From Crenothrix polyspora (GTDB lineage Bacteria > Pseudomonadota > Gammaproteobacteria > Methylococcales > Methylomonadaceae), in the NCBI RefSeq assembly GCF_900163745.1, contig NZ_FUKJ01000017.1:1-34726 (forward strand): 34,726 nt of DNA. Reading direction: 5' to 3'. Position numbers and translations under genes: made by a program. The notes below the pieces were generated by a model. The model saw nothing but the letters and a program-made list of their open reading frames with translations. It searched no databases and had not been told where the DNA came from. Below are positions 10,220 to 29,635 of this stretch, one piece after another (positions within the stretch are counted from its first letter, which is position 1; every line of letters begins with the position of its first letter).

Positions 10220-10720
10220 TTATTTTGAAGATGGCAAATCAGCATGGCGGTCTAATTGGCGACCGCCATATCGAAGTGATAAGGCATGACCATTCACGCC
10301 AAAAAGAAAGAATACGATGATGCCCAGGATAAAAATAAATGCCTGGGCTAGCTGTAACTCATGGGGTATTGGGTTGACGCTCAGCAGTAACGCCAACACC
10401 ACAAGCGATGGCACTAAGCCAAACACAATAATCAGTGCAATGATAAAGACAGGTTGTTCTGCGCCAGAGGGTTTGGTGTGTGCAAAACCAGAAACAACTT
10501 TAATGATGGTTTGGCCAAATAACACGGCTGAGCCAAATGATAATTCCGGCGATTCAATAATCGCAAACAGTGATCTGCCGACACTGACATCTACAATTGA
10601 AATCACTACCAGCGGCAGCACGATAAACAGCAGATCCCCCATTAAGGCATACATTGCGGCTTTATGATGCGTCTTATGTGTTTCATCGATGTTTCCATCG
10701 ATGAATGTGTTCTTATCCAT
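10220..10720 (-). CDS. Unknown four-helix membrane protein ahead of oleate hydratase
   Basis: A 166-residue protein I do not recognise. A polar N terminus with several His and Lys (about 1-22) is followed by hydrophobic segments near 25-48, 60-78, 90-113 and 127-145, ending in a basic, His-containing tail (SLRYGGRQLDRHADLPSSK). There is no cleavable signal sequence. It lies 10 bp before the oleate hydratase start and is surely co-transcribed with it. By position it could help handle fatty acids or hydroxy fatty acids in the inner membrane, but nothing in the sequence shows this. The coding frame is supported by its spacing and by a strong hydrophobic pattern rather than by homology I can name. 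Confidence 0.7.
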   Translation of the reverse strand: MDKNTFIDGNIDETHKTHHKAAMYALMGDLLFIVLPLVVISIVDVSVGRSLFAIIESPELSFGSAVLFGQTIIKVVSGFAHTKPSGAEQPVFIIALIIVFGLVPSLVVLALLLSVNPIPHELQLAQAFIFILGIIVFFLFGVNGHALSLRYGGRQLDRHADLPSSK

Positions 10721-25693: not shown

Positions 25694-26623
25694 TCACAAA
25701 GTGAAAACCTGGGTAACATCGGCTGTCATTATTTCACGCACTCGATTCGGGTAATCAGATACCAGGCCGGTTACACCAGCAGCCAACAAATACTTTAACT
25801 CTTCGGGGTCGTTACACGTCCATATATTGACACCGAAACCTGCGTTACGAACCTTATTGATGTGGGCAAGATAACGCTTGCCAGCCAAATCACCAAAACC
25901 ATTGCGCTTTAAATCCCTGTAACACTCCAGATTGTAAGCATTTGCTTTAAGTGTGCGTAAATAGCTTAACGGCGCTTTAATAGGCATTTCACTGAGAACA
26001 GCCGTCGCTATTTTTGTTGATTGCCGCCGCACCTGTCGTAATAAATCATGCTCAAAGGAGGAGATTAAAATTTGATCCTCCAGTCTCATTGTTTGTACGG
26101 TTTTTAATACGGCAGCAACCAGTCCCGACTCAGTACCCTTCTGAGCTTTGAGTTCTATATTAACCATCAGTTCAAGGTCTTTAGCCAGGGATAATGTGTC
26201 GGCAAGCGTTGGAATTTTTATGCTGCCGGAAGCATAAAGCTTGCGTTCGGATGGACTGATAAATTCAGCTATTTCAGCATCCGTTAAACTTTGCAGAAAG
26301 GCTTGTCTTGCGTGGTTGGGTAGAGTCAACTGCTCAATATACCAACTTCCCGCATCTAAACGGTTAAGCTCCGCAATAGTAAAATCTGCAACCGCATAAC
26401 TGCTGCGACCAGGGAATTTGCTTTCAACATCCGTACATCGGGTCAGTTGTTCATCGTGATGAACAATAACCACACCCTCTTTCGATAGGCGTACATCCAT
26501 CTCGAACATTTGGCAGCCAAACGTTTTAGCCTTGGCAAAGGCCACCAGTGTATTTTCAGGGGCATAAGCCCTGGCACCACGGTGGGCGATATTTAAGATA
26601 CTGCTTGATGTTGCTGATACCAT
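25694..26623 (-). CDS. Glycerophosphodiester phosphodiesterase
   Basis: A 309-residue metal-dependent enzyme that splits glycerophosphodiesters into glycerol-3-phosphate and an alcohol. The TIM-barrel motifs are clear: NIAHRGARAYAPENT (catalytic His14, Glu23), FEMDVRLSKEG (Glu41, Asp43), VIVHHDEQLTRCTD (His56), IELKAQ and LISSFEHDLL, ending GVTGLVSDYPNRV. There is no signal peptide at the chosen start, so it should be cytoplasmic. The ATG at 26623 has GGGGG about 4-5 bases upstream; a TTG at 26722 would add 33 hydrophobic residues resembling a membrane segment, so an anchored form cannot be ruled out. It is divergent from the ABC gene and leads into the P2 ATPase. Confidence 0.88.
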   Translation of the reverse strand: MVSATSSSILNIAHRGARAYAPENTLVAFAKAKTFGCQMFEMDVRLSKEGVVIVHHDEQLTRCTDVESKFPGRSSYAVADFTIAELNRLDAGSWYIEQLTLPNHARQAFLQSLTDAEIAEFISPSERKLYASGSIKIPTLADTLSLAKDLELMVNIELKAQKGTESGLVAAVLKTVQTMRLEDQILISSFEHDLLRQVRRQSTKIATAVLSEMPIKAPLSYLRTLKANAYNLECYRDLKRNGFGDLAGKRYLAHINKVRNAGFGVNIWTCNDPEELKYLLAAGVTGLVSDYPNRVREIMTADVTQVFTL

Positions 26624-26775
26624 CGCTGCCCCCGATTTAATATTGTTGTTCCAAAAGAATCCGTAAAACGATAAGCTACCACTAACGATAATACGATAGA
26701 AAATTAAGTAGTCAAATATCAATGAGTTTGATTGGTGAGTGCCGTATTTTTTCGATTTTTCGACAGGGGGTGACG

Positions 26776-28470
26776 ATGTGGGGACAAGACAACTTTTTAA
26801 TGCAGTTTGTAAAATTGGCCGGGCCTTTTTGGAATTCTGAAAATAAGTTTGTAATCCGCAAGAATACGCTGTTACTGATTGCGCTTACCGTGGCGCAAAT
26901 CGGTATCGCCGTTATTATTACCGAGTGGAATGCGGCTTTGTTTGATGCACTCGAACAACGATCAATGACGGGCTTAATGACTCAGATAGGGTCGCTCGTA
27001 CTCATCTTTATTGCCAGCATCACGATAACAACGATGCACCTCATCGTTAAAAGACGTTTGCTTATCGACTGGCGTTTATGGCTTACCGAAAAGGTTATTG
27101 CTAAATGGATGCATAAAGGTCGACATTACCAGATTACCTTTATGTCTAAAACCGATCATGACAATCCTGACGGTCGCATAGCCGAAGATATTCGCATAGC
27201 CACCGAAGAAGCTATCGCAATGGCACATTCCCTGTTTTATAGCGTATTACTGCTGGGCAGCTTTACTAAAATTCTCTGGACCTTATCGGATACCGTTGTT
27301 TTCGATATGGGTTTTGGGTCGATTTCAGTCGCTGGCTATTTGGTTTGGATTGCCGTTATTTATTCGGTTTTTGCCTCGATATTAGGTTGGTGGATGGCTA
27401 AACCATTGACAGCGGCAACCAATTTTCGCCAGGCTGAAGAGGCCAATTACCGGTATGATCTGATAAAGGCACAAGAAAATTCCCAGGCGATCGCTTTAAT
27501 TCAAGGTGAAGATAACGAACAAAAGCGCTTTCTGAACGCCTTCCAGGCCATTATCGACACCTATCAACAGCAAACTGCCGCTTGGAAACAAATTCAGATA
27601 TTTACCTCAGGTTACTCGGTAGCATCAATGGCGCTGCCCATTTTAGTGGCGGCACCGCGTTATATTGTGGGTGCAATTAGCCTGGGTACGTTGATGCAAT
27701 CTGTCCAGGCTTTTGGGCACATGGTTTCTGCGTTGTCTTGGCCGGTCAACAATATGGCTCAAATCGCCAAGTGGCGAGCTTCAGTTGAACGGGTTTTGGG
27801 CTTGGTTAAAGCGCTTGATGAGCTGGATTTTGATATAGCGTGTCTTAATTCACATCAGATTTGTGTCGAAAAGTCTGAAAAACCGGTATTAAAGCTTGAT
27901 AACGTCACCATCGCCAATTTGGATGGCGAAACCATTTCATCAACCATCAATGATGAAATTAAAATCGGTGAGCGGGTATTGATTTCCGGTGAAACCGCTA
28001 CCGGTGCAAAACTGTTTCAGGCGATTGCCGGTTTATGGCCTTGGGGTTCCGGTCATATCGAAGTTCCAGCTGATGAAGCCCTGTTTTTTATGCCGCCTCG
28101 GCCTTATTTACCAACGGGGTCGCTCTATGCCGCTATTTGTTACCCAAAAAACATAGCATCATGCAGCCGAACTGATTTGGAAAAATTGTTAAAAAAAGTA
28201 GAGCTTAAATATTTGGTGAAGCAGCTTGATCAGGTTGAATCATGGGGACAGCTACTTTCTCGTGAGCAACAGCAACGTTTGGGTGTCGTGCGCGTTTTAC
28301 TGCATCGACCCGACTGGATTTTTATTCAGGAAGCACTGGATTCTTTGACACCGGACGGCGAAATACAGATGATGACATTATTGGATAAAGAACTTCCGCA
28401 ATCGGCTATTTTGAGCATTACCAATCAGCCGACCGCTGAAGCCTTTCATCAACGTAAACTGAACATTTAG
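26776..28470 (+). CDS. SbmA/YddA-like ABC membrane protein with degenerate nucleotide-binding domain
   Basis: A 564-residue fused half transporter. The membrane domain (about 1-340) has the family's WNAALFDALEQR, DWRLWLTE and DNPDGRIAEDI, with about six helices. The C-terminal nucleotide-binding domain keeps its fold (AIAGLWPWGSG, RPYLPTGSLYAAICYP, LLHRPDWIF) but its motifs are broken: Walker A is GETATGAKL (405-413; no Lys-Ser/Thr), Q-loop Gln is Pro441, the signature is LSREQQQR (Gly to Glu497), Walker B Asp is Gln518 and the switch His is Asn550. Only Glu519 survives. The frame is uninterrupted, so the gene is kept. SbmA and BacA lack this domain and use the proton gradient; this protein may do the same. 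AGGGGG precedes the ATG. The GH5 gene follows by 37 bp. Confidence 0.88.
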   Translation: MWGQDNFLMQFVKLAGPFWNSENKFVIRKNTLLLIALTVAQIGIAVIITEWNAALFDALEQRSMTGLMTQIGSLVLIFIASITITTMHLIVKRRLLIDWRLWLTEKVIAKWMHKGRHYQITFMSKTDHDNPDGRIAEDIRIATEEAIAMAHSLFYSVLLLGSFTKILWTLSDTVVFDMGFGSISVAGYLVWIAVIYSVFASILGWWMAKPLTAATNFRQAEEANYRYDLIKAQENSQAIALIQGEDNEQKRFLNAFQAIIDTYQQQTAAWKQIQIFTSGYSVASMALPILVAAPRYIVGAISLGTLMQSVQAFGHMVSALSWPVNNMAQIAKWRASVERVLGLVKALDELDFDIACLNSHQICVEKSEKPVLKLDNVTIANLDGETISSTINDEIKIGERVLISGETATGAKLFQAIAGLWPWGSGHIEVPADEALFFMPPRPYLPTGSLYAAICYPKNIASCSRTDLEKLLKKVELKYLVKQLDQVESWGQLLSREQQQRLGVVRVLLHRPDWIFIQEALDSLTPDGEIQMMTLLDKELPQSAILSITNQPTAEAFHQRKLNI

Positions 28471-28507
28471 TTTCAGTGGGTATCGATAATTTAATAGGGA
28501 AATGATC

Positions 28508-29635
28508 ATGAACCAGATGCTAATGCATAACAAAGGCAAAAAACTGCGCGGTGTCAATCTTGGTGGCTGGTTAGTGCTGGAAAAATGGATGACCCCCAGT
28601 CTGTTTGAAGGACTGCATGCGGTGGATGAAACCAGTTACTGTGTTGAACTGGGAACTCAGGCCGCGTCAAGGTTACGGCATCACTGGCAAACGTTTATTA
28701 CCCAGGATGATTTCGCCTGGCTTGCCAGTATCGGCATTAATGCGGTACGTATCCCGATTGGACACTGGATTTTCGGTGCCAATTATTCCTACCACAGAAC
28801 CTATGGTGAGTCTCGCCATCCTTTTGTTGAAGGGGGAATTGAAATTCTTGATCAGGCATTCTACTGGGCAGAAGAGTATGGCTTGTCGATAATGCTGGAT
28901 TTACATGCCGCGCCAGGCTGTCAAAACGGTTTCGATAATGGCGGCATTAAAGATGTTTGTGAATGGCACACGGATAAGAGCTATATCGAACATTCGTTGT
29001 GGGTACTGGAAAGCTTGGCAGAACGCTATCATGGACGTTCCGCATTACATGCGATTGAGGTCTTAAACGAACCGCGTTGGGATATCGACACCAACCTGTT
29101 AAAAAAATATACTACGGACGGTTATTCTCGTATCCGTAAACACTGTAAGCCTGATGATACGGCGGTTGTTTTTCATGATGGTTTTCGATCTTATCGAGAC
29201 TATGTGGGATTTTTAACCGCACCTGAGTACGACAATGTGATATTGGATATTCATCGTTACCAATGTTTTGTTCGGGAAGAAATTGATTTGGATATTTTCG
29301 GGCACATCAAAAAAACAATCGTTGACTGGAATCAGGAAGCCGATGGGATTGCTCATGAAATAGAGTACGGGGCTTATGTCGGTGAATGGAGTTTAGGCAT
29401 GGATTTAAAAGTGGTGTCGCTGTGGGCGAATGGGCCTTTTAATCATGCGCTGGAAACTATGGATAAATTTCAAATGGACGTGGCTTATCGTGCGTATGCA
29501 TCTGCGCAATTAGCGACTTTCGAAAAATATCAGGGCTGGTTTTTTTGGAGTTACAAAACTGAAACTACGCCAGCCTGGTGTTTTCGTGATTGCGTTAATA
29601 ACGGCTGGTTACCGAACAGGTTTGGGTTCAAATAA
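28508..29635 (+). CDS. GH5 glycoside hydrolase, exo-beta-1,3-glucanase-like
   Basis: A 375-residue TIM-barrel hydrolase. It opens LRGVNLGGWLVLEKWMTPSLFEG, as in fungal exo-1,3-glucanases, and has INAVRIPIGHW, IMLDLHAAPGCQNGFDNGG, the acid/base Glu188 in EVLNEPRW, DIHRYQCF and the nucleophile Glu293 in VGEWSLG, plus GWFFWSYKTE near the end. Both catalytic residues are present. There is no signal peptide, so it should act in the cytoplasm, which is unusual for a glucanase and implies import or turnover of an internal glucan. The ATG at 28508 is 7 bases after AGGGA; the ATG at 28502 is too close. It follows the pseudo-ABC gene by 37 bp, so the two likely share a message. Confidence 0.88.
   Translation: MNQMLMHNKGKKLRGVNLGGWLVLEKWMTPSLFEGLHAVDETSYCVELGTQAASRLRHHWQTFITQDDFAWLASIGINAVRIPIGHWIFGANYSYHRTYGESRHPFVEGGIEILDQAFYWAEEYGLSIMLDLHAAPGCQNGFDNGGIKDVCEWHTDKSYIEHSLWVLESLAERYHGRSALHAIEVLNEPRWDIDTNLLKKYTTDGYSRIRKHCKPDDTAVVFHDGFRSYRDYVGFLTAPEYDNVILDIHRYQCFVREEIDLDIFGHIKKTIVDWNQEADGIAHEIEYGAYVGEWSLGMDLKVVSLWANGPFNHALETMDKFQMDVAYRAYASAQLATFEKYQGWFFWSYKTETTPAWCFRDCVNNGWLPNRFGFK

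Follow-up and report, generated by a model that had tools for sequence, protein, structure and literature searches.

ATP-driven and proton-driven relatives

The closest described systems share a homologous membrane domain that is driven in different ways. YddA and BclA place a transmembrane domain (TMD) of family PF06472 before a nucleotide-binding domain (NBD) and have intact ATP motifs, and BclA is described as unable to work without ATP hydrolysis (PMC12003926). SbmA and BacA, the SLiPT transporters, have a homologous TMD and no working ATPase. SbmA has no NBD, and instead carries TM0 helices and a ladder of six glutamates (E193, E203, E269, E276, E287, and E378). According to a 2026 study, SbmA is driven by protons through this ladder, with E193 as the proposed switch, and is speculated to come from a YddA-like TMD that was separated from its NBD (PMC13316013). 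The passage from primary pump to secondary transporter has thus far been argued for SbmA from such present-day end points. The Methylococcales are not mentioned in the excerpts retrieved by our limited literature search.

The window considered here is the whole 34,726-nucleotide stretch from the methanotroph Crenothrix polyspora, and the protein of its frame 26776-28470 on the forward strand, called P0001, serves as the reference for all identities below. As far as its sequence tells, P0001 is neither an SbmA, since an NBD is present and the ladder is incomplete, nor any longer a normal ABC transporter. Its nearest intact relatives by tree are of the YddA/BclA kind, at 23-36% identity; these keep their ATP motifs, whereas the clade of P0001 has lost them and carries an H88xxxK92R93 motif in the membrane domain. 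The reading preferred here, to which we give a probability of roughly 0.6, is that P0001 would be an ATP-independent, probably ion-coupled carrier of the YddA/BclA/ABCD group, with a type IV ABC fold and a dead NBD kept as a scaffold.

A half-transporter with a dismantled ATP site

The gene encodes a half-transporter of the ABC_membrane_2/SbmA_BacA type followed by a dead NBD (26776..28470, forward strand, 564 aa). The frame runs uninterrupted for 564 codons to a stop; an alternative in-frame ATG lies at 26722, and orthologue alignments begin near 26776. The TMD takes up approximately residues 1 to 350 (26776..27825) and matches Pfam PF06472 (ABC_membrane_2) at 1.3e-32, with 113.7 bits over a cut-off of 24.4, and PF05992 (SbmA_BacA) at 1.1e-17, with 64.9 bits over a cut-off of 24. 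The degenerate NBD covers approximately residues 369 to 564 (27880..28467), and ABC_tran is absent from the Pfam matches of P0001 at E <= 1e-3. The nearest solved structure by sequence is Rv1819c (6tqe, 2.5e-61), followed by ABCD proteins. An identity as the peroxisomal acyl transporter of TIGR00954 (ABCD) was rejected, as P0001 reaches 139.6 bits against a curated cut-off of 918.9. Named records at 64-73% identity come from two Methylococcaceae MAGs, a gammaproteobacterial MAG, Crenothrix polyspora, and Methylobacter luteus, and a second copy of the transporter, at 74% identity and with identical motif losses, is present in the genome of P0001 itself (3.5 Mb, 88% complete). Elsewhere in the window, a 166-codon frame at 10220-10720 on the reverse strand has no Pfam match at E <= 1e-3.

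Each motif of the ATP site is altered in P0001. The Walker A segment, GETATGAKLF (residues 405-414, 27988..28017), aligns as GETATG-AKLF with the GPSGSGKSTLF of intact relatives; it is one residue shorter and has no lysine at the canonical place, with a lysine displaced by one place to K412. In the Q-loop, FFMPPRPYLPTG (residues 437-448, 28084..28119), the stretch FFMPPRPYLP has Pro441 in place of glutamine. The signature reads LSREQ (residues 494-498, 28255..28269) rather than LSxGE. The Walker B motif and D-loop, DWIFIQEALDSLTP (residues 513-526, 28312..28353), contain IFIQEALDSL, in which Gln518 replaces the aspartate and Glu519 is retained. Finally, the switch loop LSITNQ (residues 546-551, 28411..28428) has Asn550 in place of histidine within SITN. 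The alignments of Rv1819c and the ABCD proteins show the Walker A lysine, Q-loop glutamine, and Walker B aspartate, all three of which P0001 lacks. The first-pass annotation, made from the window alone, had listed these losses and the surviving catalytic-position Glu519, and every one is as it described; the displaced lysine is a detail added here.

The losses are common to the orthologues. A set of 49 distinct orthologues, P0001 included, was drawn from 101 genomes and the named loci at >50% identity and >=500 residues, without regard to motif, and spans 53-81% identity to P0001. Identical sequences were merged and one overlapping fragment (a frame of L006) was dropped; the motif table omits L059, which has no NBD, and includes L058, a protein of 505 aa cut by a contig end. 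Neither a canonical Walker A nor a Q-loop glutamine occurs in any of the 49, the latter being proline throughout, which in a set chosen blind to motif is more than chance. The Walker B aspartate is likewise absent (Gln in 44, Glu in 5), and the signature glycine survives in one and the switch histidine in six, while the catalytic glutamate is kept in 45. A wider family search added 18 orthologues (17 distinct), in none of which a canonical Walker A, Q-loop glutamine, Walker B aspartate, or signature glycine occurs; the switch histidine is kept in one. All 66 distinct sequences thus lack a canonical Walker A and Q-loop glutamine. The same search found a match at E <= 1e-40 in 165 of 237 genomes, a count that includes a few fragments and a few genomes with an intact copy as well. 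More distant rows were classed by eye on their motifs as 31 intact, 3 intermediate, and 7 of a second degenerate type, and also took in 3 NBD-less proteins and SbmA. That all 31 intact rows carry every motif is partly by construction because they were sorted by motif, and so serves as description and not as control. The motif loss is far broader than one strain, old, and shared, and the ATP site has been dismantled across the whole clade.

It is possible, if unlikely, that the dead NBD still binds a ligand, such as ATP without hydrolysis, another anion, or a second messenger, through the shortened P-loop and K412, and so serves as a switch or sensor instead of a motor. Residue 412 is basic in 48 of the 49 orthologues (K in 45, R in 3), Glu519 is kept in 45, and every one of the 49, like the 18 additional orthologues and four intermediates, has a loop shortened by one residue, as if fixed once. 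Set against this, the canonical Thr/Ser after the lysine, the Q-loop glutamine, the Walker B aspartate, and the signature glycine are gone, one member has leucine at 412, and three (L098, L127, and L059) have no NBD at all. Some residual binding of an anion or nucleotide may persist, given the conserved K412, which counts against the preferred reading.

Membrane residues that might replace ATP

All 56 aligned clade members (55/55 and L168) carry an H88xxxK92R93 motif in predicted TM2. Among the 31 intact relatives, H88 and R93 are never found and K92 is found once, a comparison that is not by construction; none of the three occurs in the seven rows of the second degenerate group. H151 is present in 53/55 and in L168, against 1/31 intact rows. 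All four residues occur in the 18 further orthologues and are retained in the NBD-less members. Three other candidates failed the wider comparison: H128 is also found in the intact L169 and L174, W322 in 8/31 intact rows and all four rows added later, and R295 in 11/31 intact rows while it is missing from L168. The claim of clade specificity is for this reason restricted to H88, K92, R93, and H151, which we regard as the likeliest candidates to couple ions or to bind an anionic substrate. The full-length AlphaFold model reached a pLDDT of only 45 and was left unused, so H88, K92, and R93 are placed in the membrane by hydropathy and homology.

The glutamate ladder of SbmA is only partly shared. 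E137 and E222, which align with SbmA E193 and E276, are invariant (55/55) in the clade. They are the sole invariant ladder matches, and their equivalents are often present in intact relatives too (22/31 and 21/31, respectively), which counts against the preferred reading. By sequence alignment of the 49 orthologues, the position of E203 is Ile, Val, or Leu, that of E269 is Thr, that of E287 is Arg, Gln, or His, and that of E378 is a mixture of E, Q, K, N, and S (Lys332 in P0001). The idea that the clade completes the ladder was dropped, since four of the six positions are not conserved glutamate. The clade further differs from SbmA in keeping its NBD, and no N-terminal extension is apparent in the alignment; in the stop-to-stop frame of E. 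coli SbmA, residue 99 is the one paired with residue 30 of P0001, which would make the stretch before TM1 about 70 residues shorter in P0001. The likeness to SbmA is probably that of an ABC-fold transporter working without ATP drive.

The protein could instead be a passive or regulatory membrane protein, such as a facilitated-diffusion pore, a lipid scramblase, or a receptor, that is not energised at all. The sequence holds no proof of energy coupling and the ladder is missing at four of six positions, as this explanation would allow. We nevertheless consider it improbable, because 131 of 345 TMD positions are conserved at >=90% and predicted TM2 carries invariant charged residues, a degree of conservation that seems to go beyond the needs of a simple leak.

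ATPase partner and oligomeric form

ABC exporters with one degenerate half exist, and heterodimers such as TM287/288, TAP, and CFTR keep one canonical composite site, so degenerate NBD motifs can be found in a working protein. By this precedent P0001 could be the inactive partner in an ATP-driven heterodimer, and two dead-copy genomes (G006 and G055) do carry an intact YddA-type relative. Among the matches listed (at most 13 per genome, some genomes being incomplete), however, no such relative appears in the other 35 of the 37 dead-copy genomes. The genome of P0001 has two strong matches, both dead, and 10 of the 37 carry two full-length dead copies. A single chain carries the damage to Walker A as well as to the signature, so that neither composite site would be whole whatever it paired with; even an intact partner would not restore a canonical site, which makes such a heterodimer very improbable. 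The carrier proposed here would therefore be expected to pair with itself or with a second dead copy.

Selection and fold of the dead domain

The dead NBD is held by purifying selection. Twenty-six dead-clade pairs were drawn from 13 sets, of which the L096/L097 set belongs to an intermediate group and yielded no ratio; the figure obtained for an NBD-less pair has no meaning for this domain and was disregarded. By the Nei-Gojobori method, NBD dN/dS is 0.03-0.16 in 21 of the 26 pairs, the other five being saturated. These values are close to those of the TMD and of intact control pairs (0.04-0.22, 9 of 11 measurable), and far from the ratio of about 1 that would mark recent decay. One feature of the domain tells against the preferred reading, as the mean identity in the dead clade is lower for the NBD (0.56) than for the TMD (0.64), unlike the intact relatives, in which the order is reversed (0.43 and 0.38).

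Modelling indicates that the ABC fold is retained. An AlphaFold model of the NBD built from six rows has a pLDDT of 72.6, with values below 50 confined to residues 1-3, the surroundings of the P-loop, and the C-terminal end. Foldseek ranks Rv1819c first among its matches (6tqe; E 1.5e-16, TM 0.77), and its best Z-score, 16.0, is to ABCD1 (7vx8) over 197 residues at 3.6 Å; Rv1819c and the ABCD proteins, at Z 15-16, are therefore the best relatives by NBD fold as they are by sequence. A conserved domain has a job, and the simplest one for this NBD would be as a dimerisation and gating scaffold. The first-pass annotation had offered a dead domain with a new role as one alternative, with which this constraint is compatible, and its view that the open frame is not a simple pseudogene is borne out by the intact orthologue frames and low dN/dS. 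Neither of the two outcomes that it had named as refuting, orthologues with whole motifs beside a single degenerate strain or a ratio near 1 over the domain, was observed. Pseudogenisation or strain-specific decay, seen in one genome (G024) with only fragments of the transporter and its neighbouring GH5 gene, can be set aside for P0001 given those frames and ratios and the matches in 165 of 237 family genomes.

From part-dead to NBD-less relatives

Four part-dead intermediates (L096, L097, L129, and L168) come from two other lineages. Members in G216 and G331, found among 369 genomes of the class, have lost the Walker A lysine and switch histidine and kept the Q-loop glutamine and signature glycine, with a Walker B of IDEATNALD in one and IEEATDALN in the other. 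A relative in G468 has lost the Q-loop glutamine, signature glycine, and Walker B aspartate as well. The member in G790, which belongs to another class and was found among 398 genomes of the phylum, has lost Walker A, the signature glycine, and the Walker B aspartate and kept the glutamine and histidine. G790 also has an intact YddA/BclA-type copy elsewhere in the genome (L175 and L176).

Among the clade members examined, the NBD is absent only in L098, L127, and L059. L098 (386 codons) and L127 are TMD-only genes in G234 and G466, which belong to a single genus. The third is a TMD-only second copy in G052 (L059:4670-5770) that lies inside the methanotroph clade; tblastn found no NBD remnant in its flank. 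Its TMD is still constrained, more weakly at residues 226-260, an odd and faster stretch. A conserved neighbourhood was looked for around the intermediates and NBD-less genes and none was seen, and viral contigs scanned with the family alignment yielded no relative.

Two trees, both built from the TMD only, join the intermediate, NBD-less, and dead proteins in one clade, with the intact relatives standing beside it. The clade has SH-aLRT support of 100 in the first tree, which has long branches, and of 100/100 in a more careful tree with L168 added that used 29 of the 49 orthologues and omitted SbmA, YddA, and six more rows that were long or odd. The two NBD-less kinds separate in both trees, so the NBD was deleted at least two times. 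By sequence, then, one part of the tree holds a living series of intact, part-dead, dead-but-conserved, and NBD-less members. In the first tree the single SbmA row, from E. coli, has a very long branch and stands outside the clade, apart from the NBD-less members, which lie inside it; the careful tree is silent on the place of SbmA because it was omitted. The first-pass annotation had seen in P0001 a step between the YddA/Rv1819c type and SbmA. As a type of path this stands, with part-dead, dead, and NBD-less proteins in one clade, but as the actual road to SbmA it is not supported, given the outlying E. coli branch and the four ladder glutamates that are not conserved. The dead clade is best read, from these alignments and trees, as a parallel to the proposed origin of SbmA and not as its established ancestor.

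A second degenerate YddA-type group is found in a different family (f4) within the same order (L082, L084, L086, L087, L088, L089, and L124). All seven rows have a Walker A of GxxxxAK[VQ]A, glutamate for the Q-loop glutamine, and arginine for the Walker B glutamate. The group forms its own clade, sister to the intact L081/L083/L085, and has a higher NBD dN/dS of 0.34-0.36 in two of three pairs.

The adjacent GH5 enzyme and other neighbours

Downstream of the transporter, on the same strand, lies a gene for a 377-aa enzyme with a GH5 domain match of the exo-beta-1,3-glucanase type (28502..29635). It shares this domain with the fungal exo-beta-1,3-glucanases XOG1 and ExgA, and matches glucan 1,3-beta-glucosidase A at 3.3e-61 and an XOG1-type entry at 1.7e-56. 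Its orthologues have Asn-Glu-Pro in 28/28 and the Gly-Glu-Trp pattern in 24/28. It differs from the fungal enzymes in sitting beside a transporter and in its N-terminus, as no hydrophobic stretch was seen by eye in the 28 GH5 N-termini, and the enzyme is probably cytosolic to judge from these sequences. Two GH5 copies contain one internal TGA each (G013:C43:50785-51873 and G041:C71:73-1197).

The GH5 gene is the next same-strand gene in 27 of 50 loci (the 49 orthologues and L059), and under a stricter distance test it adjoins the transporter in 25, with gaps of 5-168 bases. Of the 37 dead-copy genomes 31 have it, compared with 2 of the remaining 64 (Fisher tests, which ignore kinship), and it is missing from all 273 additional genomes sampled from the class. 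This co-occurrence speaks for a common pathway, and a first guess at the substrate would be a molecule that contains sugar. The enzyme need not define the substrate, because it was not found in 6 of the 37 genomes, nor beside the intermediates and NBD-less genes. Among the 101 relatives, the GH5 gene is found in the family to which the genome of P0001 belongs and in one genome of a second family (G061). The gene is of fungal type and was possibly acquired from elsewhere. In G024 (L090 and L091), one of the 2 of 64, the transporter and GH5 gene survive only as fragments and apparently are decaying together. On the other side of the transporter, a divergent gene on the reverse strand (25694..26722) matches glycerophosphodiester phosphodiesterase; 11 of the 50 loci have a homologue no more than five genes away, and in 8 it is the divergent upstream neighbour.

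Proposed mechanism and meaning

As an ion-coupled carrier, the protein would work as a homodimer or as a dimer of two dead copies, with the NBD pair forming a cytosolic scaffold for dimerisation and gating. Gradients of substrate and ion, most likely the proton by analogy with SbmA, would drive conformational cycling, and coupling would proceed as in SbmA, though some of the residues involved would differ. A glycan-like molecule or glycoconjugate may be the substrate, imported for the neighbouring GH5 enzyme, which is probably cytosolic; export of a GH5 product would be less likely. A fuller history can be sketched tentatively, and we hold it at somewhat short of even odds. It sees an ABC transporter becoming a secondary transporter apart from SbmA: the breakage of Walker A came first, erosion of the remaining motifs followed in varied orders, the dead NBD was kept as a scaffold across the methanotrophs and shed at least two times, and ATP drive was replaced by means of the TM2 HxxxKR motif and H151, in the service of a cytosolic GH5 glucanase pathway.

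What this means for the family is that a methanotroph lineage keeps an ATPase-dead transporter under strong selection. Because some relatives have dropped the dead NBD entirely, the drive is probably something other than ATP. The series makes testable the role of a dead NBD, the residues that stand in for ATP, and the order in which the motifs are lost.
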